A DNA stretch of 42,140 bases from a virus. The stretch lies in IMG/VR virus record IMGVR_UViG_3300039203_000030, positions 1 through 42,140 of that record; one strand, 5' to 3'. The notes beneath the pieces are model-generated. The model worked only from the letters and a program-made list of their open reading frames with translations. It was not told the DNA's origin and did no database searches. Below, piece by piece: positions 2,721-41,827 of the stretch (position 1 is its first letter; every line of letters starts with the position of its first letter). Made by a program: the position numbers and the translations under genes.

Positions 2721-3200
2721 ATGGCAGGCGAAACCATTCTCCACATCATCGGCAACCTCACGGGAGATCCGGAGCTTAGATTCACACCGTCCGGCAGCGC
2801 GGTCGCTAACTTCACGGTCGCCGCGACCCCCCGCACGTTCGACCGGAACAGCAACGAATGGAAGGACGGGGAAACCCTGTTCATGCGCTGCGCTGTGTGG
2901 AAGGAAGCCGCTGAGAACGTCGCCGAGTCCCTTACCAAGGGTATGCGCGTGATCGTGTCCGGGCGGCTGAAGCAGCGCTCCTATGACACGAAGGAAGGCG
3001 AGAAGCGGACCGTCATTGAGTTGGAGGTGGACGAAATCGGCCCCTCCCTCCGCTACGCGAACGCGAAGGTCAACCGCACGCAGCGCTCCGGTAACGGCGG
3101 CGGCTCCAACAGTGGTGGCCAGTACGGGCAGGTTGACCCGGCACAGGCTGCGGCGGCCAATGACCCGTGGGGCGGGAACGACACGGCTCCGCCTTTCTGA
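2721..3200 (+). CDS. ssb: Single-stranded DNA-binding protein
   Basis: 159 residues. An N-terminal OB fold spans residues 1-110: [24 protein letters not shown] at the start, [40 protein letters not shown] and [18 protein letters not shown] Gly/Ser/Asn-rich linker follows, then a C-terminal tip ending NDTAPPF, close to the usual acidic DDxPF tip that recruits partner proteins. It coats ssDNA during phage replication and recombination. It is the last gene before a strong terminator and so closes the first early operon. Confidence 0.95.
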
Positions 3201-3451: not shown

Positions 3452-3676
3452 TTGAAACAAGATACACCCGCGCCCAAGACGGACGCAATAACAAATCCAG
3501 ACGTTGTACTAAACATGCTGGCGCAGGTCTCCGCCACCTACGAAGCCCACGGCCGCATCCGTAAGGAGCTCGCCCGCCTCGCCATCGACGCCGGCGCCAC
3601 CTACCAGCAGGCCGGGGACGCCATGGGCCGGGACAGGTCCAGCGCCCACACCCTCATCAACGGCCGTGCAGCATGA
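3452..3676 (+). CDS. Small HTH-like protein, 74 aa
   Basis: The TTG start at 3452 is chosen because GAGGGGAAA lies just upstream and it falls after the leader hairpin; a TTG at 3374 would translate through the hairpin. The C-terminal 30 residues (ARLAIDAGATYQQAGDAMG then RDRSSAHTLINGR) look like a sigma-region-4/HTH fold with a recognition helix around DRSSAHTLI. It is the first gene of the replication operon and overlaps the methyltransferase by four bases. It is probably a DNA-binding accessory protein; the target is unknown. Confidence 0.65.
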   Translation: MKQDTPAPKTDAITNPDVVLNMLAQVSATYEAHGRIRKELARLAIDAGATYQQAGDAMGRDRSSAHTLINGRAA

Positions 3677-4368
3677 GCCTCTACTACCAAGACGACTACG
3701 TGACGCTCTACCACGGCGACTGCCTCACCGAGCATCGCGAGTGGCTGGACGCCGACGTACTGGTTACCGATCCGCCGTATGGGATGGCGTATGTCAGCAG
3801 TGCCAGCAAGCACAAGGGCAAGACGGCAGTCATCGCGGGCGACGGCGACACGATGGCGCGGGATGGCGTACTGGATGCATGGGGATCTCGCCCCGGACTG
3901 GCCTTTGGGACATGGCGGACGAATAAGCCTGCGAGTACTCGTCTCACCTTGACGTGGGATAAGGGCGTTAGTCCCGGCATGGGAGATCTCGCGTTGCCGT
4001 GGGGTATCTCCACCGAGGAGATTTATGTCATCGGCTCATGGCCCGCCATAAAGCCTGGCGGGCGCGTGCGGGAAGGCGGAAAGCCGTCGCGTGCGGCATC
4101 TGTCCTCCGCGTGGACACGCTGAACAGTCAGGCCATCGACCGCCCGGACCACCCGACACCTAAGCCCGTACCACTCATGGAGCGGCTGATCGAGAAGTGC
4201 CCGCCCGGCACTATCGCGGACCCGTTCGCCGGAAGTGGCGCCACGCTGGTTGCCGCTAAGAATTTGGGTCGAAAGGTGATCGGTGTGGAACTCGAGGAGC
4301 GCTACTGCGAGATCATTGCCAAGCGTTGCGCGCAGGAAGTCCTGGACATCTTCGGCGGTGCAGCGTAA
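3673..4368 (+). CDS. DNA methyltransferase, beta-class (N6-adenine or N4-cytosine), copy 1
   Basis: 231 residues. The catalytic DPPYG lies at 33-37 (motif IV) and the AdoMet-binding motif FAGSG lies near 185 (motif I) at the C-terminus. This IV-before-I order defines the beta class. RPDHPTPKP upstream of motif I is motif X-like. The middle (about 41-140) is the target-recognition region. The first 40 residues are identical to those of the methyltransferase at 41156, and the C-terminal 55 are nearly so, while the middles differ. No restriction enzyme is adjacent, so it is probably an orphan methylase for evading host restriction or for regulation. Start ATG overlaps the upstream stop. Confidence 0.92.
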   Translation: MSLYYQDDYVTLYHGDCLTEHREWLDADVLVTDPPYGMAYVSSASKHKGKTAVIAGDGDTMARDGVLDAWGSRPGLAFGTWRTNKPASTRLTLTWDKGVSPGMGDLALPWGISTEEIYVIGSWPAIKPGGRVREGGKPSRAASVLRVDTLNSQAIDRPDHPTPKPVPLMERLIEKCPPGTIADPFAGSGATLVAAKNLGRKVIGVELEERYCEIIAKRCAQEVLDIFGGAA

Positions 4369-4817
4369 TGGCGTACAAATTCAAGGGCCCGAACCGCGCT
4401 GACCCGGAGTACATGTCCGAACCGCTCCCCGTGTCGAAGTGCGGGACCCGGCCGGGGTATCGGCAGCACCAGAACCGCAACGAGGAACCGTGTGACCCGT
4501 GCGCTGAAGCCCACGCCGAATACATGCGGGCGTACATGCGTGAGCACCCGTTGGTGCCACGTCACGGGACCGTCAGCGGTCACCGGGCGCACCTGAAAGC
4601 CACCGAAAAACCCTGCCTGGACTGCGTGACGGCTGCGGCGTCCCACGTGCCGGTGAAGCGTGTACGGCGGAAAGCTCGGAAGGTGTGGACTGCTGACAGG
4701 TGCGGGACAACTGCCGGGTATAGGGCGCACTACTACTACGGCGTCCCGGCGTGCGACGGATGCAAGGAAGCGCAGGCTGTCTACTCGGCCGGCTACCGGG
4801 AACGGCAGGCCGCCTGA
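4368..4817 (+). CDS. Triple Cys/His zinc-repeat protein, 149 aa
   Basis: ATG shares one base with the methyltransferase stop (TAATG). The protein has three copies of a unit CGTxxGYxxH-x7-CxxC-x3-A: ligands C25/H34/C42/C45, then H66 (in place of the first Cys)/H75/C83/C86, then C112/H121/C129/C132. Each unit is followed by a Tyr-rich helix (AEYMRAYM, AVYSAGYRER). The C-H-C-C spacing suggests one zinc per unit and a nucleic-acid-binding role, which is inference. The adjacent gene at 4817 has two more copies of the unit. The linker between repeats 2 and 3 is very basic (KRVRRKARK). Confidence 0.75.
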   Translation: MAYKFKGPNRADPEYMSEPLPVSKCGTRPGYRQHQNRNEEPCDPCAEAHAEYMRAYMREHPLVPRHGTVSGHRAHLKATEKPCLDCVTAAASHVPVKRVRRKARKVWTADRCGTTAGYRAHYYYGVPACDGCKEAQAVYSAGYRERQAA

Positions 4818-5170
4818 TGGCCGGGTATGTTTACCGGGGCACCGACTTCGACGTGTCCGAGCCGTTGAAGCCCCTGGCCATCCGACGTTACGCCGGGGCC
4901 GTGTGCGGGACCAGACCAGGGTATATGCGGCACCGCGCCAACGACGAGGACCCCTGCACGGACTGCCGGGACGCCGTCGCTTCCTATAACCGGGATTACC
5001 GGAAGCGGGTGAAGGCCCGGCAGATCACCAAGGGTTGGTCCCCGGTGAAGTGCGGGACCCGGGCAGGGCATCATGCGCACCACCGCCACGCCGTACCCCT
5101 GTGTGAGCCGTGCCGGAAAGCTAACGCCGACTACTGCCGGGCACGTCGCGACGCAAAGAAGGCCGCCTGA
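4817..5170 (+). CDS. Double Cys/His zinc-repeat protein, 117 aa
   Basis: ATG shares one base with the upstream stop (TGATG). Two copies of the same unit as the upstream gene: C30/H39/C47/C50 and C79/H88/C96/C99, separated by a basic Tyr-rich helix (YNRDYRKRVKARQ). The two neighbours probably arose by duplication of a single module. They sit between a methyltransferase and the replication initiator. Function unknown; zinc-dependent DNA or RNA binding is a reasonable guess. Confidence 0.75.
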   Translation: MAGYVYRGTDFDVSEPLKPLAIRRYAGAVCGTRPGYMRHRANDEDPCTDCRDAVASYNRDYRKRVKARQITKGWSPVKCGTRAGHHAHHRHAVPLCEPCRKANADYCRARRDAKKAA

Positions 5171-5928
5171 TGTCTACAGACAGGCTGTTCTTCAAGCTGC
5201 ACAACGGGTTCCCGGAACACCCTAAATCCATTGAGCTTTCCGACAAAGCGTTCCGGCAACTCATCGAGGCGTGGTGCTACTGCTCGAGGAACCTCAACGA
5301 CGGGAAGCTGTCAAAAGCACAGTTTTTCAAGCTTTTTTCGGCAAAATCCCGAAAAGAACTGCTGACAGTAGGGTTCGTGGTGGAGTCCGAAAATGGCTAT
5401 GAAATGCACGACTATTTGGAGCACCAGCAGTCGGCTGAACAGGTCGAAACCCGCAGGAACAAGCGGGCTGCGGCCGGTTCTATGGGTGGGCGGGCGAAAG
5501 CAAATGGTCTAGCAAGTGCTAACTCACATGCTAAGCAAACGGCTAGCAAATCTGTAGCAGATACAGATACAGATACAGATGAAGAAGCTAAAGCTTCTTC
5601 TATCCCCGCCAAGCGGGGCGCGAGAATCCCCCCCGACTTCGCCGTTGCCCCGGCGATGGTGGCATGGGCCCGGGCTAACTGCCCCAGCGTGGACGGCCAG
5701 CGGGAGACGCTGAAGTTCATCAACTATTGGCAGGCCAAGGCTGGCCGGGACGGCGTGAAGCTCGACTGGCCGGCGACGTGGCGTAACTGGATGCTCACCG
5801 CGGCCGAACGCGCACCCCAAGGCAAGCCCACCGTGAGCGACAAAATGCGGGACACCCTCGCTCGAGGGCAAGCACTCCAAGACCGGATGAACAACCCCAG
5901 CCAGACAACCCTCCAGATAGGCGCATGA
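5170..5928 (+). CDS. Replication initiator / replisome organiser-like protein, 252 aa
   Basis: N-terminal winged-helix-like domain (about 1-90: FFKLHNGFPEHPKSIELSDKAFRQLIEAWCYC ... MHDYLEHQQS), then a low-complexity linker (about 95-145) containing TDTDTDTDEE, then a C-terminal domain (PPDFAVAPAMVAWARANCPSVD ... WPATWRNWMLTAAER) resembling the DnaT/DnaD-like C-terminal domain of phage replication proteins. It is followed directly by a putative loader and a DnaB helicase, the expected order for origin binding and helicase recruitment. The linker-coding DNA holds an origin-like repeat block at 5497-5600. Start ATG shares one base with the previous stop. Confidence 0.8.
   Translation: MSTDRLFFKLHNGFPEHPKSIELSDKAFRQLIEAWCYCSRNLNDGKLSKAQFFKLFSAKSRKELLTVGFVVESENGYEMHDYLEHQQSAEQVETRRNKRAAAGSMGGRAKANGLASANSHAKQTASKSVADTDTDTDEEAKASSIPAKRGARIPPDFAVAPAMVAWARANCPSVDGQRETLKFINYWQAKAGRDGVKLDWPATWRNWMLTAAERAPQGKPTVSDKMRDTLARGQALQDRMNNPSQTTLQIGA
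5497..5600 (+). other. Candidate replication origin inside the initiator gene
   Basis: Within the linker-coding part of the initiator lie iteron-like copies of CTAGCAA/CTAAGCAAA/CTAGCAAA/GTAGCAG (at 5509, 5531, 5543, 5554), four tandem hexamers (GCAGAT then three ACAGAT, 5557-5580), and a perfect inverted repeat GAAGAAGCT-AA-AGCTTCTTC (5581-5600). The block is clearly more AT-rich than its surroundings. The arrangement parallels lambda, where iterons lie within gene O. Function is inferred from architecture and position. Confidence 0.5.
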
Positions 5929-5929
5929 C

Positions 5930-6343
5930 ATGAACATTGCAGAGACTTCCATGGTCCTGGCGAAGATCCAGGCTTTCGACAACCGCAACGTGGACGATGC
6001 CACAACGATTGCATGGCAGGAAGTCCTTGAGCCGCACACGGTTCAGGACGCACTCGAGGCTGTCTCGGACTACTTCCGGGTGTACTCGGCATGGATCATG
6101 CCAGCGCACATTGTGGAGCGGGTCCGTGCTATGGAGGAGGACAGGGTGAACCAGTTCAAGAACGGCTGCCACCTGAACCCCGCCGATGAGGACCGGACGC
6201 TGGCCGGCGCGGGCTGGTCTGAGGGGATGCGGGCGCTGCACCGTGCCGTGCGTACCGGGGCGCTGTCCCCGGCCGCGTACGCGGCATATCAGGATGGCAC
6301 GCAGCCGCTCGAGGCGTTCCTGGGTCGTAAGGCGATCAAGTGA
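5930..6343 (+). CDS. Putative helicase loader, 137 aa
   Basis: ATG one base after the initiator stop. Small helical protein: residues 5-75 (ETSMVLAKIQAFDNRNVDDATTIAWQ ... YSAWIMPAHIVERVRAME) resemble the N-terminal domain of phage helicase loader/inhibitor proteins of the G39P type, with the characteristic Asp-Arg-Arg/Asn, Trp and IMPAHI-like segments. Position between initiator and DnaB supports this. The C-terminus (WSEGMRALHRAVRTG ... EAFLGRKA) is variable. Loader function is inference from synteny and weak similarity. Confidence 0.65.
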   Translation: MNIAETSMVLAKIQAFDNRNVDDATTIAWQEVLEPHTVQDALEAVSDYFRVYSAWIMPAHIVERVRAMEEDRVNQFKNGCHLNPADEDRTLAGAGWSEGMRALHRAVRTGALSPAAYAAYQDGTQPLEAFLGRKAIK

Positions 6344-7605
6344 CCCCGGCGGAGAAGGCGGTCCTCGCCGCGCTGCTCGAGTCCAACGGCGGGTGCCTGC
6401 ATGAGATCAGCCTCGAGCCCCGGGACTTCTCCACCGTCCAGGGCGAGATCCTGTATGGGCTGATTCAGGATGTGGTGGGCTCCGGCCGCCCGGCGGATCC
6501 GCTGACCGTCGAGGATGAGGCCGGCAGGCTGGATGAGGCCGGCCGCCGGGCTGTCCCGTTGGGCTTCGTGTGGACCCTCACGGACGTTTTTGTGCCGGAG
6601 GCGGCAGTGGCGCACCATGCGGCCATTGTGGCGCGTGAGGCGGCCCGCAGGAGGTTCGTCGCGGTGACCGCGAACCTGCATCAGCGGGCGCAGGAAGGCG
6701 CGGACGTTCACGCCTTGGTGGATGAGGGGCTCGAGGCACTCACGAAAGCCACCGCCGGCCTCGGATCCAGCACCCGGCCCGTGTCCGAAACCATCGACGG
6801 GACACTGGACGCACTCGACTCCCCCGTGACCTACACGGAATCGCCGTGGGAGAACGTGAACCACTTCATTCAGGGCTGGCGGCCAGGCGCCCTGTATGTC
6901 ATCGGCGCCCGACCCAGCGTGGGCAAAACGGTCGCGGGGTTCCAGGCCGCACTGTCGTTGTGTAACCGTGGCCCGGTAGCGTTCACGTCCCTCGAGATGG
7001 GCCATGAGGAGCTCGAGCTGCGCATGGTCTCGCAGGAGGCGCGGGTGGACATGGGCCGGATCACCCGCCGGCAACTCACGAACGCGGACTGGGAACGGGT
7101 GGGGAAGGCCCGGGAACGGTGGGAACACCTGCCCTTGTTCATTGACCCCTCGAGGGATGCGTCGATGGCGCAGGTAGCCCGGCACGCATGGAGTGTGAAG
7201 CGCAAGCACGGCCTGGCCGCTGTTGTGGTGGATTATCTGGGACTCATTGAGCACCCGGATTCGAGGAAGTCTGAGTATGAGGTGGTCACGGAGACCACCC
7301 GGAAGCTGAAGCTGTTGGCGCAGGCGCTCGGGGTCCCGGTCATTGCGTTGTCGCAGTTGTCGAGGAAGAACGAGGGCCGGGAAGGGAAAACCCCGCAACT
7401 CTCGGATCTCCGCTCCTCCGGAGCGATTGAGCAGGACGCTGACGTGGTGATCCTGATGCACCGTGACCTGATGGAGTCCCCGCATGAGGCGGACATGATT
7501 GTGGCGAAGAACCGGAACGGGATCACGGGCACGGCGGAGATGGATTTCATTGGCCATAACTCGATGCTCCGGGACCGCGGCAAGCCGTCAGGGTTCTACG
7601 CGTGA
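6340..7605 (+). CDS. dnaB: Replicative DNA helicase, DnaB family
   Basis: GTG start overlaps the upstream stop (GTGA). 421 residues. The N-terminal helical DnaB domain covers about 1-100 and a linker 100-160. The RecA-like ATPase has Walker A GARPSVGKT (about 189-197), catalytic-Glu strand FTSLEMGHEELELR, Walker B VVVDYLGLIEH (about 293-303), and the switch region VIALSQLSRKNEGR with SDLRSSGAIEQDADVVI. These are hallmark DnaB motifs. It unwinds the fork as a hexamer. It follows initiator and putative loader and is coupled to rusA by another four-base overlap. Confidence 0.95.
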   Translation: MTPAEKAVLAALLESNGGCLHEISLEPRDFSTVQGEILYGLIQDVVGSGRPADPLTVEDEAGRLDEAGRRAVPLGFVWTLTDVFVPEAAVAHHAAIVAREAARRRFVAVTANLHQRAQEGADVHALVDEGLEALTKATAGLGSSTRPVSETIDGTLDALDSPVTYTESPWENVNHFIQGWRPGALYVIGARPSVGKTVAGFQAALSLCNRGPVAFTSLEMGHEELELRMVSQEARVDMGRITRRQLTNADWERVGKARERWEHLPLFIDPSRDASMAQVARHAWSVKRKHGLAAVVVDYLGLIEHPDSRKSEYEVVTETTRKLKLLAQALGVPVIALSQLSRKNEGREGKTPQLSDLRSSGAIEQDADVVILMHRDLMESPHEADMIVAKNRNGITGTAEMDFIGHNSMLRDRGKPSGFYA

Positions 7606-8079: not shown

Positions 8080-8104
8080 GCCCGAACTGGTTGAAAGTCC
8101 GGGC
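8080..8104 (+). promoter_or_regulatory. Leader hairpin 2 (recurrent 5'-UTR motif)
   Basis: Lower stem GCCCG/CGGGC (extendable by two outer pairs around one mismatch), A/C mismatch, upper stem ACT/AGT, loop GGTTGAA. It starts about 20 bases downstream of the -10 box and ends 25 bases before the HNH ATG at 8130. A-rich AATAAAGAAG precedes it. Same architecture as 3394, 13013 and 36362. Confidence 0.65.
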
Positions 8105-8129
8105 GACGTATCGGAAAGGTAAGTTTCCA

Positions 8130-8606
8130 ATGACAAGCATAACCCTCACCCACGAAGAGGTGGAGCGTTTCTGGGCAAAGGTGGACAAGTCCGGCGAGTG
8201 CTGGCTATGGACCGCCTACAAGGCCCGCAACGGCTACGGCCGGTTCTCAGTGCAGCAGAAGCCAACCCTTGCTCACCGTATCTCGTACAGCCTCGCCACC
8301 GGCGAACTGCCCCAGATTTTGGATCACAAGTGCAGGGTCCGGGCCTGCGTTAATCCTGAACACCTCCGCCCGGCCACGTTCAAAGAGAACCGAGAGAACT
8401 TGTCCGGAGCTCAGCGCGGGAGCAAGAGCGGCGTTCGGGGTGTCTCATGGTCTGCCCACTCAAAGAAGTGGAGGGCCGACGTGACCCACAACAACAAGCA
8501 GACGCTCTTGGGCTACTTCGGCACGATCGAGGAAGCGGAGGCCGCTGCGGTGGCCAGACGAAATGAACTCTTCACTCACAACGACGCAGACAGGACCGTA
8601 GCGTGA
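8130..8606 (+). CDS. HNH endonuclease with C-terminal AP2-like domain (copy 1)
   Basis: 158 residues from ATG 8130; upstream in-frame TTG 8091 lies inside the leader hairpin and is rejected. The N-terminal HNH (about 1-95) contains FWAKVDKSGECWLWTAYK, AHRISYSLATG, LDHKCRVRACVNPEHLR and NRENLSG; D/H of LDH and the Cys pair are the metal and structural residues. The C-terminal AP2-type DNA-binding domain (about 105-155) reads GVRGVSWSAHSKKWRADV ... EAEAAAVARRNELFTHN. Free-standing homing-type nucleases of this class cleave DNA site-specifically and spread into phage genomes. Close paralogue at 13070. Confidence 0.92.
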   Translation: MTSITLTHEEVERFWAKVDKSGECWLWTAYKARNGYGRFSVQQKPTLAHRISYSLATGELPQILDHKCRVRACVNPEHLRPATFKENRENLSGAQRGSKSGVRGVSWSAHSKKWRADVTHNNKQTLLGYFGTIEEAEAAAVARRNELFTHNDADRTVA

Positions 8607-12679: not shown

Positions 12680-12752
12680 GAGCGTATAGCCAAGAGGTTA
12701 GGCACTGGCCAGCAAAGCCAGAGGGACGCGGGTTCGACTCCCGCCACGCTCC
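12680..12752 (+). tRNA. tRNA-like gene, anticodon loop CAGCAAA (GCA, Cys), atypical
   Basis: A full cloverleaf can be drawn: acceptor GAGCGTA/CACGCTC (last pair A-C mismatched), D-stem GCC/GGC with a loop containing GG, anticodon stem CTGGC/GCCAG, seven-base loop, T-stem GCGGG/CCCGC with TTCGACT loop. By position the anticodon is GCA (Cys). Position 33 is A where U is almost invariant, and the discriminator is C, unlike typical tRNA-Cys. CCA is not encoded. The D-arm and acceptor region look like a Gln/Glu-type tRNA. It may be functional, recoded or decaying. Confidence 0.75.
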
Positions 12753-13041: not shown

Positions 13042-13069
13042 CGTGATCGAACTGATTAAGGAGCTCGAT

Positions 13070-13546
13070 ATGGAAACCATAACATTCACGCCGAAAGACC
13101 TTGCACGATTCTGGGCCAAGGTTGATGAAACTGGCACCTGCTGGACATGGACGGCATCCAAGGATCGCGATGGCTACGGGCAAATCTGGTTTGCAGGGAA
13201 GCTGCGGGTAGCTCACCGAATAGCTTACGAGATAGCAAATGGGCCGATCCCTACAGGGAAGCAGTTGGATCATATCTGCCGAGTGCCAGCATGTGTGCGG
13301 CCCGGCCACCTCCGCGTCGTGACCAATAAGCAGAACCAGGAGAACCTGACCGGGGCGTATTCCAACTCTCGGTCAGGCATTCGTGGCGTGAACTGGAACA
13401 GCGGCCGCCGTAAATGGGCCGTCGGAGTGCAGCACAACGGCAAGGCGTATCATGGCGGGCTCTTCACAAGCCTCCCTGAGGCAGAGCAAGCCGTCATCGC
13501 ATTACGCAACAGACTTTTCACACATAACGAACTAGACCGGGGCTGA
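13070..13546 (+). CDS. HNH endonuclease with C-terminal AP2-like domain (copy 2)
   Basis: 158 residues from ATG 13070 with AAGGAG upstream; GTG 13043 lies next to the leader hairpin and is rejected. HNH region: FWAKVDETGTCWTWTASK, AHRIAYEIANG, LDHICRVPACVRPGHLR, NQENLTGAY. AP2-like region: GIRGVNWNSGRRKWAVGV ... EAEQAVIALRNRLFTHN. It matches copy 1 at 8130 throughout but with many substitutions, so the two are diverged paralogues or separate arrivals. Its place just before the terminase genes is a usual HNH location and some such nucleases help packaging, but the AP2 architecture suggests a homing enzyme. Confidence 0.92.
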   Translation: METITFTPKDLARFWAKVDETGTCWTWTASKDRDGYGQIWFAGKLRVAHRIAYEIANGPIPTGKQLDHICRVPACVRPGHLRVVTNKQNQENLTGAYSNSRSGIRGVNWNSGRRKWAVGVQHNGKAYHGGLFTSLPEAEQAVIALRNRLFTHNELDRG

Positions 13547-34626: not shown

Positions 34627-34883
34627 TGCATATCGACCCCTCAGCCGTCCTCGCGCTGCTCTCCGACCTGACCCAGCGACTCGCCGCCTCCGAAGCTGAA
34701 AATGCACAGCTAAGGGCAAAGATGGAAACTGCCCCAACTCTGGAGCGGGAAGGATTCAAGGCCTACGCGACACCAGATGGAACATATGCAGTTTCATGGG
34801 GCGGGCAGTGGCTCTCTGGCATCTATGGGAAGACCGCGGAAGAAGCCATTGAACTCGGCCGCGCCGAAGTGGCCAAGGGATGA
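34626..34883 (+). CDS. Small coiled-coil protein after the fibre, 85 aa
   Basis: ATG shares a base with the fibre stop. N-terminal leucine-rich coiled coil (SAVLALLSDLTQRLAASEAENAQLRAKME), then KAYATPDGTYAVSWGGQWLSGIYGKTAEEAIELGRAE, a small domain. Could be a fibre chaperone or a fibre-tip partner; unproven. Its last 90 bases overlap the end of the leftward SGNH gene. Confidence 0.65.
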   Translation: MHIDPSAVLALLSDLTQRLAASEAENAQLRAKMETAPTLEREGFKAYATPDGTYAVSWGGQWLSGIYGKTAEEAIELGRAEVAKG

Positions 34884-35642
34884 TAAGGAAAGTTGGGCAA
34901 CCTTGATTCGGGCGAGCAGGGCATCGGCAATGGCCCGGTGCCCTGTGTCGTTCGGGTGAAAATCATCAGACTTGCCCGTGAAGGCAGGCAGCCCAGCCGG
35001 GCCAATCGTTGCAGGGTCGCGGTAGAGCTCCCGCAGGGACACGAATACCCCGCCATGCCGTTCGCATTGGTCGGTAATCACGGCATCATATGTCGGACCC
35101 TCAGGACCGCCACCGTTGCCCTCCCATACGCCCGCGCAGACCAGCGCAACACCTGGTGAGCCTTGCGTGATCCGGTCCAGCAGCGAGCCGTATGCGGCCC
35201 CGAACTGATCCAGCGGGGTCACCTTACCCAAGTCGTTGGTTCCCAGCTCGACCACTGCAAGGTCCAACCCCTTGGGGACCTCGTACTTGGCGGAAACGTC
35301 CAGTGTTGTCCCGCCCGTGATGGCGCTGTTGAACTCCTGCACCGGGCCACTCTTTTGAAGCTGGTCCAGCATTAGCCACTTGAACCCATTCTTCTGCTGG
35401 GACGCATACAGCGCACCAGTCAACGAATCCCCGGCGAACAGGGTACGCAACGCGGCACCGTTCTTCCGAGTAGGCGCCACGGTAGGCGGGGGTAGTGGGG
35501 CCGGGAGGGGCACGTACTGTGTGACAACACCCCCCGACTTGCTCGAAGCAGACTGCCCCAAGGCAACGCCCGAGATGCTTAGGGCCGCCACGGCCAGAAT
35601 GGCGATGCCGCCAAACTTAAGTACCTGCTTCTTATCGGGCAT
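34794..35642 (-). CDS. SGNH/GDSL hydrolase, membrane-anchored or secreted, 282 aa
   Basis: Start ATG 35642 is chosen for GGGGGAG five bases upstream; in-frame GTG/ATG further up (35669, 35666) are possible. The hydrophobic segment FGGIAILAVAALSISGVAL (about 9-27) is an anchor or signal. A Pro-rich linker (PLPAPLPPPTVAP) precedes the catalytic domain: AGDSLTG (Ser nucleophile), VELGTNDLG (Asn/Gly oxyanion motif) and KSDDFHPNDTGH (Asp/His). Such enzymes deacylate sugars or lipids at the cell surface. Leftward in a late rightward region, so likely a prophage-expressed gene that alters host surface or receptors (inference). Confidence 0.85.
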   Translation of the reverse strand: MPDKKQVLKFGGIAILAVAALSISGVALGQSASSKSGGVVTQYVPLPAPLPPPTVAPTRKNGAALRTLFAGDSLTGALYASQQKNGFKWLMLDQLQKSGPVQEFNSAITGGTTLDVSAKYEVPKGLDLAVVELGTNDLGKVTPLDQFGAAYGSLLDRITQGSPGVALVCAGVWEGNGGGPEGPTYDAVITDQCERHGGVFVSLRELYRDPATIGPAGLPAFTGKSDDFHPNDTGHRAIADALLARIKVAQLSLSSLGHFGAAEFNGFFRGLPIDAREPLPAP

Positions 35643-35725
35643 ACGAACTCCCCCACGCTTCTTCATCACCCGCAAATCATACCGGCACTCCTACGTCCAG
35701 TCGGGCGGCACCGAAACCGCAAGCC

Positions 35726-36414: not shown

Positions 36415-36885
36415 ATGAACAGTGTACGGGAACGCATCATGAGCCGCGTGGAAATCAACGCAGGCGGGTGCTGGATATTCCAAGGCGCAATCACTTCCCG
36501 CGGGTACGGATCGATCAGTGTGGACGGTGTCATCCACAGCACCCACACCAGAATGTACCTCGCGTCAGGCCGGGAGATCCCGGAAGCTATGGAGATCGAC
36601 CACCTATGTCACGGGCAGAGCGATTGCAAGGGCGGGACCGAATGCCCGCACCGCGCCTGCTGCAACCCCGCCCACCTTGAAGCCGTGCCGAAGGAAGTCA
36701 ACTGGGAACGCGGCGAGTCGCCCAGCCGGATCAACTCCCTCCGCACGGAATGCAAGCATGGCCACCCACTGGCAGGGGATAACCTCCGCATTGCGATCCG
36801 AAAAGGGCGCAACCCTTCCCGGCAATGCAAGGCCTGCCACCACAACCTCATCCAGGCGCGCCGGGCCGCGGGGCTCGCAGCCTAG
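36415..36885 (+). CDS. HNH endonuclease with C-terminal Cys/His finger, 156 aa
   Basis: ATG with GGAGGG upstream. N-terminal GGCWIFQGAITSRGYGSISVDG and THTRMYLASG, then EIDHLCHG, a Cys-rich insert (DCKGGTECPHRACCNPAHLEAV) holding the HNH metal site, and a C-terminal segment ECKHGHPLAGDNLRIAIRKG then RQCKACHHNLIQARRA with paired Cys. This is the homing-type HNH common in actinophages, different in domain layout from the two AP2-bearing copies. It faces the integrase tail to tail with a four-base overlap. Confidence 0.9.
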   Translation: MNSVRERIMSRVEINAGGCWIFQGAITSRGYGSISVDGVIHSTHTRMYLASGREIPEAMEIDHLCHGQSDCKGGTECPHRACCNPAHLEAVPKEVNWERGESPSRINSLRTECKHGHPLAGDNLRIAIRKGRNPSRQCKACHHNLIQARRAAGLAA

Positions 36886-37970
36886 GAGAACATCCCGTCG
36901 AGCCTGTCCGCTACGTCGTTGAGGTCGCTGTCAAACAGGCCCGCATACGTCGATAGGGTCATCTCGGCTTTGGCGTGGCCCAGCATCCGCTGGAGGGCCT
37001 TGATGTTCGCCCCGGCACTGACGGCCAACGACGCGGCCGTGTGCCGGAGGTCGTGCGGGTACAGCCCCGGAGGGAATGACGGGTCGGCTGCGCAGGCGGC
37101 CCTAACGGCGGATTTCATGTGGATCCACCGGAAGTTCGTGGGCCGGATCCGCTGGCCCCTGGCGGAGGTGAAGATCAGGTCCCCGGGCGCACCCTCCCCC
37201 ATGACGGACAGGACCTTGGACGTCAACGGAACATCCCGGGGCTTACCCGACTTCGGGGTCCCCACGATAGCGGTCCCCTTCACCCACACGACGGCCCGGG
37301 AGATGTTCGCCCGTTTCCGTTCCTGGTCGATGTCCCCGAATCGGAGTTCGGTGAGCTCCCCCATTCGCATCCCCGTGAGTGTGAGGCCCCAGATGAACCC
37401 GGAGTAGTGCGGCTGGATACTGTCCGCGAGGAGGGCCACCTGTGCGGGCTTGAGGTAGGTGTGGGGGCGCTGGGTCTTCGGTGGCAGCTTCACGCCCACC
37501 GCCGGCGACACGACGATCCGCCCTTCCTGCACACACCAGTTCAGGAAGGTTTTGAACCGGCCGTGCAGGGTTGCCACTGTTGTGGGCGCGAGGTCCAGGC
37601 CGGCCACCCACGTTTGGATGTCGGCGCGGCGGATGTCCGCGATGATCCGATCCCCCCAGTAGGGGCGGAGGTGCCGCTCCATGTCCCCGGCCGTTTCGTT
37701 CCGCGTGGACGGTTTGAGGTGGAGTTGGCCATCGAACCATTCAGTGAGGAGGTCTTTGACGAACACCCGGCCCCGGTCCTGGCTGATGTAGGTCCCGGCC
37801 CGCTGGTTGTGTTCGATCCATGCGAGGTGGGCTTTGGCTGCGTCCTTACTCGCGAAGGACTTCTTTTTGGGTGAGGCGCCTTCACTCCAGACGGCACGCC
37901 AGCGCAGGCCCTTGCCGTACTCGGCGGTGCGGGTCCTGTCCTTCCGGTGCCAGCGGTCTTCCAAAGCCAT
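36882..37970 (-). CDS. int: Tyrosine integrase
   Basis: 362 residues from ATG 37970 with AAGGAG upstream. N-terminal arm-binding part (about 1-55: RWHRKDRTRTAEYGKGLRWRAVW ... SFASKDAAKAHLAWIE), core-binding domain (about 60-160: FVKDLLTEWFDGQLHLKPSTRNETAGDMERHLRPYWG) and catalytic domain with TGMRMGELTELRFGDID (Arg), YPHDLRHTAASLAVSAG (His-x-x-Arg), GHAKAEMTLSTYAGL (His and nucleophile Tyr). It recombines attP with a host attB. Two bases separate its start from the ImmA-like gene stop, so both are one leftward unit. Confidence 0.96.
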   Translation of the reverse strand: MALEDRWHRKDRTRTAEYGKGLRWRAVWSEGASPKKKSFASKDAAKAHLAWIEHNQRAGTYISQDRGRVFVKDLLTEWFDGQLHLKPSTRNETAGDMERHLRPYWGDRIIADIRRADIQTWVAGLDLAPTTVATLHGRFKTFLNWCVQEGRIVVSPAVGVKLPPKTQRPHTYLKPAQVALLADSIQPHYSGFIWGLTLTGMRMGELTELRFGDIDQERKRANISRAVVWVKGTAIVGTPKSGKPRDVPLTSKVLSVMGEGAPGDLIFTSARGQRIRPTNFRWIHMKSAVRAACAADPSFPPGLYPHDLRHTAASLAVSAGANIKALQRMLGHAKAEMTLSTYAGLFDSDLNDVADRLDGMFS

Positions 37971-37972
37971 GG

Positions 37973-38281
37973 TTACTCCTTGCAGATGCCGGGGTGGCCG
38001 GTGAGCCGGGTCATGATGAGCCATTCGTCGGGGTCGAGGCCGGCCAGGTAGTTGCAGACGTCGGCGGGTTCGACGGCGAGGACGTCGGCCATGTCTTCGA
38101 GACCGTGGGCGGTGCGGGCTGCGTTGAGGAAGTCGCGGGGTGTGATGAGTCTTCGGGCCGCCCACTTCCCTGCCATCTCACATCCGGTGGGGCAGTCAGT
38201 GTGATAGAAGGCGTGCCCGCGTGCGTGCATCTCTAGTGAGTGGGTGGTGATCGTGCCCCCAGCGGGCGTTTCCTTCAACAT
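37973..38281 (-). CDS. ImmA/IrrE-like protein with degenerate HExxH, 102 aa
   Basis: ATG with AGGGGA upstream. The block MHARGHAFYHTD (His19, Ala20, His23), then GCEMAGKWAARRLITPRDFL and MADVLAVEPADVCNYLAGLDPDEW follows the short actinobacterial ImmA/IrrE pattern, in which HELGHAFYGH and ERQADQWAARRLI are usual. Here the catalytic Glu of HExxH is Ala, though both His and a later Glu (35) remain. It lies between integrase and repressor, the place where an ImmA-type antirepressor would act. Protease activity is doubtful. Confidence 0.75.
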   Translation of the reverse strand: MLKETPAGGTITTHSLEMHARGHAFYHTDCPTGCEMAGKWAARRLITPRDFLNAARTAHGLEDMADVLAVEPADVCNYLAGLDPDEWLIMTRLTGHPGICKE

Positions 38282-40974: not shown

Positions 40975-41159
40975 CCGGGGACGCACGCGTGAAGGACGTG
41001 GCCGAGTTCCTGTCCATGCACCCGGAGACGGTCCGGACGATGGCACGCTCCGGGGACTTCCCGAACGCGTACAAGACGAACGGGCGTACCTCCCCTATCC
41101 GTATCCCGTGGGCTGATGTTGAGGCGTACCGGAAGAAGCAGCTGAGGGTGAACCGATGA
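40971..41159 (+). CDS. Excise-like MerR/HTH protein, 62 aa
   Basis: ATG overlaps the previous stop. The sequence RVKDVAEFLSMHPETVRTMARSGDFPNAYKTNGRTSPIRIPWADVEAYRKKQ is a compact MerR-type winged helix (helix_turn_helix_17-like), the fold of phage excisionases. With a tyrosine integrase encoded in the same genome it is the best Xis candidate, though it could also be a transcription factor. Confidence 0.75.
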   Translation: MTGDARVKDVAEFLSMHPETVRTMARSGDFPNAYKTNGRTSPIRIPWADVEAYRKKQLRVNR

Positions 41160-41827
41160 GCCTCTACTACCAGGATGACTACGTGACGCTCTACCACGGC
41201 GACTGCCTCACCGAACACCGGGAATGGCTGGACGCTGACGTGCTGGTGACTGATCCGCCCTACGGCATGGCATACACCGGGTTCGGAGGCCGCAAGGGTG
41301 AACCGCGTCGCACGACTGGCAAGCTGTATGTTAGCGGTGACAGCGATACGAAGATCCGAGATAGTGCGCTGGTCCAGTGGGGTAACAAGCCAGCAATTAC
41401 GTTCGGCAAGTGGACGATTCCAAGGCCGGCCGGAGTGAAAGCCCGACTGATATGGGACAAGACGCCGTGTGGATTCATGGGCGACTTGTCCATGCCGTGG
41501 GGGTCCGCGGAGGAAGAAATCTACATCCACGGCTCCGGGTTCATCGGCAAGCGTGAGGCAAATATCTTGCGCTCACCAGCACTCATGTCTGGTGACGCAA
41601 ACCGCCCGGACCACCCAACACCGAAGCCGACCGGCCTCATGGAACTACTAATCGCCAAGTGCCCGCCAGGAACCATTGCGGACCCGTTCGCCGGTTCCGG
41701 ATCAACACTCGTCGCCGCTAAGAACCTGGGACGCCATGTCATCGGCGTGGAACTTGAGGAACGCTACTGCGAGATCATCGCCAAACGCTGCGCGCAAGAC
41801 GTGCTGGATATCTTCGGGGTGGCGTGA
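41156..41827 (+). CDS. DNA methyltransferase, beta-class, copy 2
   Basis: 223 residues. The first 40 residues, through catalytic DPPYGMAY, equal those of the copy at 3673, and the C-terminal part with ADPFAGSGSTLVAAKNLGR, VIGVELEERYCEIIAKR is nearly the same. The middle (about 41-150: TGFGGRKGEPRRTTGKLYVSGD ... KARLIWDKTPCGFMGDLSMPWG) differs in sequence and length apart from fold residues, so the two enzymes should recognise different sites. Motif order IV then I gives beta class. ATG overlaps the excise-like stop. Confidence 0.92.
   Translation: MSLYYQDDYVTLYHGDCLTEHREWLDADVLVTDPPYGMAYTGFGGRKGEPRRTTGKLYVSGDSDTKIRDSALVQWGNKPAITFGKWTIPRPAGVKARLIWDKTPCGFMGDLSMPWGSAEEEIYIHGSGFIGKREANILRSPALMSGDANRPDHPTPKPTGLMELLIAKCPPGTIADPFAGSGSTLVAAKNLGRHVIGVELEERYCEIIAKRCAQDVLDIFGVA

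Follow-up and report, generated by a model that had tools for sequence, protein, structure and literature searches.

The locus and its genes

The window, meaning the whole stretch of DNA that was analysed (42,140 nucleotides, one strand), is part of a 45,086-base IMG/VR virus record, IMGVR_UViG_3300039203_000030, which is of the actinophage type. Its replication region encodes the following proteins, all on the strand shown.

2721–3200, plus strand: single-strand DNA-binding protein, in the same replication region and upstream of the initiator (PF00436, 1.1e-31)
5170–5928, plus strand: replication initiator gene, 252 amino acids (PHROG replication-initiation families, 4.8e-22 and weaker)
5930–6343, plus strand: small open reading frame (ORF) between initiator and helicase (phrog_6055, a family of unknown function, 4.5e-16)
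6340–7605, plus strand: DnaB-like replicative helicase, two genes downstream of the initiator and proposed to be loaded at the block described below (PF03796, 1.6e-69; phrog_19, 1.4e-79)

The initiator was assigned by its matches to the replication-initiation profiles phrog_3926 (4.8e-22) and phrog_2447 (2.5e-16); searches of Pfam (E 0.1) and NCBIfam returned no family match. The named relatives of the protein, 250 records, come mostly from phages of Mycobacterium, Gordonia, Arthrobacter, and Microbacterium, and all are less than 60% identical to it. A RusA gene is also found downstream of the initiator. Two overlapping ORFs directly upstream (4326–4817 and 4751–5170) carry repeated CGT..GY motifs, and the product of the second, which matches WhiB-like PHROGs (4.3e-15), has the appearance of zinc-ribbon repeats. 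Within the initiator gene, the stretch encoding the N-terminal part contains a second AT-rich dip at 5290–5410, in which a terminator-like match is located (5302–5328).

An AlphaFold2 model of the initiator, calculated from 25 sequences (alignment A4), has a mean pLDDT of 77.4 and consists of a winged-helix-like N-terminal domain (residues ~1–105), a disordered linker (~119–146), and a C-terminal domain (~150–215), with both terminal domains modelled confidently. When the N-terminal domain was compared with solved structures, the closest chains included 6l0o, another winged helix (Z 6.6), 4pql_A (Z 6.3, 3.0 Å over 81 residues), and 5kbj_C (Z 6.2, 3.1 Å over 81 residues); RepA_N-type chains (4pql, 5kbj, 4pt7, and 4pta) scored between 5.7 and 6.3, which is below 8 and not decisive, and DnaD scored 5.1. 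The 4pql and 5kbj chains are presumably RepA_N proteins, an assignment for which PMC7145576 is a partial source. A sequence search of solved structures with the initiator gave only a chance match (E 0.41), and Foldseek found no match to the model at E 0.001. With Z below 8, the resemblance of the N-terminal domain to winged helices, initiator chains included, is suggestive only.

Elements of the block at 5497–5600

5497–5600, plus strand: proposed origin block within the initiator gene, with its lowest silent-site divergence, atypical codons, and a GC content of 0.40
5498–5559, plus strand: iteron array, five [TA]AGCA sites in the 12-12-11-11-11 register common to coding and noncoding relatives
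5557–5580, plus strand: tandem hexamer tract, proposed site of unwinding and single-strand loading; a short-period tract is present here in 26 of 31 linker clusters
5581–5600, plus strand: perfect inverted repeat with an 8-bp stem and a TAAA loop; paired changes in relatives L003–L007, loop mostly TAAA or TAAC among relatives

The block starts approximately 330 bp into the gene and encodes residues 110–144 of the initiator ORF. A preliminary description of this DNA had proposed that iteron-like repeats, four tandem hexamers, and a perfect 20-base inverted repeat are packed here into AT-rich sequence encoding a low-complexity linker, and all of these elements were recovered. Five [TA]AGCA sites begin at 5498, 5510, 5533, 5544, and 5555, a spacing of 12, 23, 11, and 11 that uses five of six slots; the slot near 5521, empty in the window, is occupied in L337, L338, L344–L346, and L348. 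Counting both strands, AGCAA is found four times within 5497–5560, where its density across the window predicts 0.06 occurrences. When the codons of the block's peptide were resampled synonymously 20,000 times, five [TA]AGCA[AG] sites, again on either strand, came up once. The hexamers are GCAGAT at 5557–5562 followed by ACAGAT at 5563, 5569, and 5575; outside the block, 11 ORFs of the window use ACA for 9% of Thr and GAT for 21% of Asp. The tract is part of a block whose GC content of 0.40, at a locus of 64% GC, is below both the mean (0.625) and the minimum (0.524) of the synonymous resamplings, and the codon log-likelihood of the block is 10 sd below that of resampled codons. In the AlphaFold2 model, pLDDT is below 50 for residues 119–146, which connect the two confident domains, as expected for a low-complexity linker.

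The inverted repeat reads GAAGAAGC-TAAA-GCTTCTTC and, folded as single-stranded DNA, has a free energy of −6.9 kcal/mol (z −3.7; four sequences were counted in the folding and L397 was left out). Because an arm of at least 8 appears in 1322 of 20,000 synonymous resamplings and is thus not improbable given the peptide alone, the case for the hairpin rests on the relatives.

Constraint on DNA rather than protein

Conserved DNA where the protein varies had been named beforehand as a check on the proposed origin, and this pattern was found. The window was aligned by codon with L003, L004, and L005 (L002, identical to the window, was left out), and fourfold silent sites were compared pairwise. In the block, 2 of 78 comparisons show a difference; the corresponding counts are 94 of 249 for the N-terminal part and 98 of 258 for the C-terminal part. 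Of 217 sliding 105-nt segments of the gene, those starting at 5494–5500 have the lowest silent-site divergence. When L006 and L007 were added, the counts were 3 of 176 in the block and 226 of 572 in the N-terminal part. Residues differ in 42 of 210 pairwise comparisons in the block (20%), in 47 of 642 in the N-terminal part, and in 164 of 638 in the C-terminal part. L006 and L007 have a different C-terminal domain that begins directly after the hairpin, and they keep iterons, tract, and hairpin. The block is constrained at the DNA level.

Layout in relatives chosen by the N-terminal domain

Viral contigs were searched with a profile built from an N-terminal domain alignment (A3, 11 rows), and the best 80 of 200 relatives were examined, a set that includes some near relatives of the window also used elsewhere in the analysis. 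Most of the 80 contain iterons phased at 11–12 bp followed by a tract with a period of 6 or 7 bp, and sometimes a hairpin; in near relatives of the window, phased array, short-period tract, and hairpin follow each other in fixed order. The tandem tract score in the 300 bases past the domain has a median of 16 across the 80 loci compared with 6 in upstream and downstream controls. One upstream control, that of L384, scores 28, and it probably overlaps the tract because the contig leaves no room upstream. After merging into linker clusters, the score is at least 9 in 26 of 31 and below 9 in five, and the shuffle P is below 0.05 in 27 of 31. The tracts of the 26 clusters have a period of 6 (19 clusters) or 7 (7 clusters), T makes up 7.4% of their bases on the gene's strand, and their units include CAGATA, CAGAGA, CAGAATA, GCAGAG, and ACCATTA. 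Read by eye, named relatives lacking the ACAGAT form (Schmidt, Bauer, Zucker, and Huphlepuff) carry other short-period repeats, and a search of named phages with the DNA of the block gave only short matches to the tract. Five relatives were found for the A7 family.

Seventeen of these 26 tracts are coding, three of them with a period of 7, and nine are noncoding. A stop codon closes the frame 69–99 bases past the domain in 20 of the 80 loci, ahead of the array or early in it, which leaves the tract noncoding. In TripleJ and BIM BV-113, two named phages, the array lies in an intergenic gap past the annotated end of the gene. For these two (L319 and L318, respectively), L349–L351, and similar loci, the initiator consists of the N-terminal domain alone, with the array in or beside the intergenic gap. 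Asapag and Nadezda are further isolates with the layout. Array and tract persist where the DNA is noncoding, and the tracts beyond a stop codon, together with the coding tracts of period 7, show that selection acts on the DNA and argue against a cause at the protein level. The iteron spacing 12-12-11-11-11 is shared by coding loci (L344–L346 and L348) and by L349, in which the stop codon falls at the second site; L366 and L387 have 11-12-12-11-11, and L382, L396, and L399 have 10-11-12-11-11. Because 11 is not divisible by three, neighboring iterons encode different residues.

The hairpin in relatives

Within the family of the window, a hairpin lies past the tract with the stems GAAGAAGC, GAAGTACC, ATAGAAGC, or ACAGAAGC and their complements around a TAAA or TAAC loop, and the stem is kept by paired changes in L003–L007. 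Wider relatives have further stems, such as ACACCACC, TTAGCTAC, and ACTACTTC. Three loci (L008–L010) have other N-terminal domains and other iterons, with the hairpin placed before a C-terminal domain shared with the window; in two of them (L008 and L010), GAAGAAGC-TAAA-GCTTCTTC and ACTTCTTC-TAAC-GAAGAAGT were read by eye after C-rich repeats of 5 bp. Parts of the initiator locus seem to swap as modules in L008–L010. These loci, which share only the C-terminal domain, show repeats of the GTGGGAC or GTGACG type, with the 5-bp C-rich repeats preceding the hairpin.

A stem of at least 7 follows the tract in 23 of 125 distinct segments, compared with a mean of 0.5 in shuffles and with 58 of 4999 random 50-mers from the same loci. 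Loops of the form C(TRAV)G close 11 of the 23 stems and were seen in none of 50 shuffles and in four random 50-mers. Stem pairing is 98%, a value that is partly a selection effect because the rows were required to have a stem of at least 7. The hairpin is an accessory part of the layout and not universal.

Reach of the ACAGAT tract

Viral contigs contain at least 120 stretches with four exact ACAGAT repeats, and Thr-Asp is the longest open frame of the repeat in 116 of the 120 matches listed. From these 120, 113 proteins were kept (two without a start and five longer than 700 amino acids were dropped), and their overlapping PHROG matches were mainly to DnaD-like helicase loaders (53), primosomal proteins (44), and replication initiation (42). 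A search for the Thr-Asp dipeptide repeat in any codons gave 120 stretches, of which 70 were new and 50 had been seen in the exact-repeat search; 37 of the shared stretches were listed and the remaining 13 were inferred from scan order. In this any-codon sample, with those 13 included as inferred, pure ACAGAT encodes the repeat in 43 of 48 initiators versus 7 of 72 other proteins; outside initiators, TD repeats use mostly other or mixed codons. When masked proteins were clustered, with 12 loci lacking a Thr-Asp frame left out, 110 initiators fell into a single group; the repeat is pure ACAGAT in 105 of them and of the ACTGAT type in five. At loci of at least 55% GC, the tract uses ACA in 168 of 168 and GAT in 168 of 168 codons, whereas the rest of these genes uses them at 14% and 38%; the tract count is biased because most loci were fetched by the exact repeat. 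Of 80 DUF1376-type loci, chosen by N-terminal domain with seeds from the ACAGAT set, 53 pass the tract score, as do 4 of their 10 clusters.

Across many diverse phages, ACAGAT tracts are a mark of initiator genes. In bacterial genomes, 16 of 117 repeat stretches are initiator-like, with hosts from Sphingobium and Delftia to Brevibacillus, Bifidobacterium, and Nocardia, and the bare repeat is for this reason not diagnostic outside viruses. Among bacterial and archaeal genomes (L201–L317), ACAGAT is often a plain microsatellite or part of a low-complexity protein.

Comparison with known origins

The preliminary description had likened the block to lambda gene O. The parallel is apt for the layout: in the lambda record the O gene carries four annotated iterons, and the stretch after them is rich in A (0.60) and poor in T (0.16). 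It does not extend to the protein, which is not a sequence relative of O; the window initiator has no Pfam family and no match among PHROGs labelled O-like. PMC7466680 places lambda-type origins in the middle of O. The window shares with lambda, P22 gene 18, and 80alpha gp20 iterons within the initiator gene and an A-rich stretch on the same side. The annotated origin in P22 gene 18 has iterons and T-poor repeats followed by CCCCC-TAAA-GGGGG, and the annotated putative origin in 80alpha gp20 has AT-rich repeats followed by GTCGGG-CAA-CCCGAC; in lambda our script detected no inverted repeat, and an imperfect one is visible by eye. The lambda boxes are 18 bp long, whereas the iterons of the window are 11–12 bp apart, and the window tract is a regular 6-bp repeat unlike those of lambda, P22, and 80alpha, with array and tract sometimes noncoding in its relatives. 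A tract with a period of 5 to 8 has a shuffle P of 0.03 in lambda O, and none was significant in TP901-1 rep (0.78), 80alpha gp20 (0.78), or P22 gene 18 (0.08).

Plasmid replicons offer further parallels. PMC5703833 describes RepA_N initiators (pSK41 and pTZ2162) whose N-terminal winged helix binds boxes central in the rep gene and, for pSK41 Rep, an ori within the gene that encodes a dispensable linker. The boxes of these plasmids lie within the rep gene as in the window, and N-terminal domains of RepA_N proteins rank among the closest structural matches, but the window initiator has no Pfam RepA_N match. TrfA and RepE bind one strand of a repeat-containing unwinding element according to PMC4081077, and iterons adjoin a repeat-containing element in the RK2 and F origins as in the window; RK2 has four 13-mers, whereas the window and its relatives have repeats of 5 to 7 bp. 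For Miko, an origin within repA or upstream of it is suggested in PMC7157519, and no such tract was found in the gene of Miko RepA, which belongs to another family of phage replicons and is functional on a plasmid. In the open-access PMC literature, nothing was recognised on the tract, TD linkers, or actinophage arrays, which is weak evidence of novelty.

Interpretation of the block as a replication origin

Conservation at the DNA level and the common layout of relatives together make it very probable that DNA copying starts at this block, a phage replication origin inside the gene of its own initiator and lambda-type in layout. The origin-like block proposed by the preliminary description is thus supported by comparison, which indicates that relatives keep array and tract even outside the gene. 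Cumulative GC skew, one of the suggested checks, passes 5.5 kb without an extremum and lends no support to an origin there. Also counting against an origin are the frequency with which the peptide alone yields such a hairpin, the rarity of stems after the tract, the five low-scoring linker clusters, the six DUF1376 clusters below the tract score, and the gene of Miko RepA, which lacks a tract. Judged from sequence, the layout would be a widespread variant of the known lambda-type internal origin.

Three other explanations were weighed against this origin. Selection of a low-complexity acidic linker as protein, with the hexamers arising by codon-repeat slippage and the iterons by chance, would fit the near-constant Thr-Asp frame of ACAGAT (116 of the 120 viral matches listed) and the presence of TD repeats in unrelated proteins. 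We regard it as extremely unlikely, as silent sites are frozen while residues change, tracts of period 7 are unable to encode a dipeptide repeat, some tracts are noncoding, and TD repeats outside initiators are mostly written in other or mixed codons. A regulatory site, with the array as an autoregulatory operator or the hairpin acting in mRNA, would account for phased sites and a hairpin within a transcribed gene, and initiators can bind their own operators. This reading is highly improbable: the block lies ~330 bp inside the gene, neither a promoter-like nor a terminator-like sequence was matched there, an Rfam search gave no match at the block, and in most relatives a tract closely follows the array, as in annotated phage origins.

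The block might also be a recombination joint for the shuffling of initiator domains, its likeness among phages being due to homologous exchange without any origin function. Both the switch of L006 and L007 to another C-terminal domain just past the hairpin and the retention of the hairpin before the shared C-terminal domain in L008–L010, which have other N-terminal domains and iterons, speak for such a joint, which leaves unexplained the 11–12 bp phasing, the paired changes in the hairpin, and the conservation of noncoding arrays and tracts; without an origin it is very unlikely. The two roles may coexist in the same block.

If the block is an origin, the N-terminal winged-helix domain would bind the iterons, and one site per 11–12 bp would align the bound proteins on one face of the DNA. 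The initiator complex could then melt the adjacent T-poor tract, which is AT-rich for a GC-rich genome, and the opened strand would be held by the initiator or taken over by the helicase. The C-terminal domain would recruit the DnaB-like helicase encoded two genes downstream, and the hairpin, in loci that have one, would delimit the block on its far side and might offer helicase or primase a folded single-stranded site. Since the origin DNA encodes a disordered linker, the protein presumably tolerates it.

More tentatively, and as an idea that we rate somewhat less likely than not, the short-period T-poor tract might be a dedicated origin element that tailed phages use in general, with repeats that serve for single-strand loading and are read in register by the initiator or helicase machinery. 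Such an element would be common to different DNA-binding domains and hosts, would in some lineages go together with a stem-loop whose TAAA or TAAC loop is conserved, and could move in and out of frame, with TDTDTD linkers as by-products. For most tailed phages, to our knowledge, no origin has been mapped. Should the layout hold, the place where replication begins could be located in the sequence of a great many phages and prophages, from initiator to phased array to short-period tract, and the puzzling TD, TE, and KD repeat linkers would be explained as DNA signals. Noncoding versions such as that of TripleJ would permit mutation of the proposed origin without altering the protein.

Other features of the window

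Two related DNA methylase genes lie near the ends of the window (3673–4368, which matches PF01555, and 41156–41827); their first 119 bases are 88% identical and ~220 bases near the end are 79% identical, with different middle parts. Two HNH endonuclease genes (8091–8606 and 13043–13546), whose proteins are 50.6% identical over 160 columns, are probably homing-type elements, and a third, weaker HNH match at 36415–36885 scores 26.6 bits with a cutoff of 24.8. A tRNA gene is located at 12680–12752 (Rfam RF00005, 49.6 bits). An integrase is encoded at 36882–38165 (PF00589), and near it, on the minus strand, is a GDSL-lipase-like ORF at 34794–35675 (PF13472, 1.5e-20).
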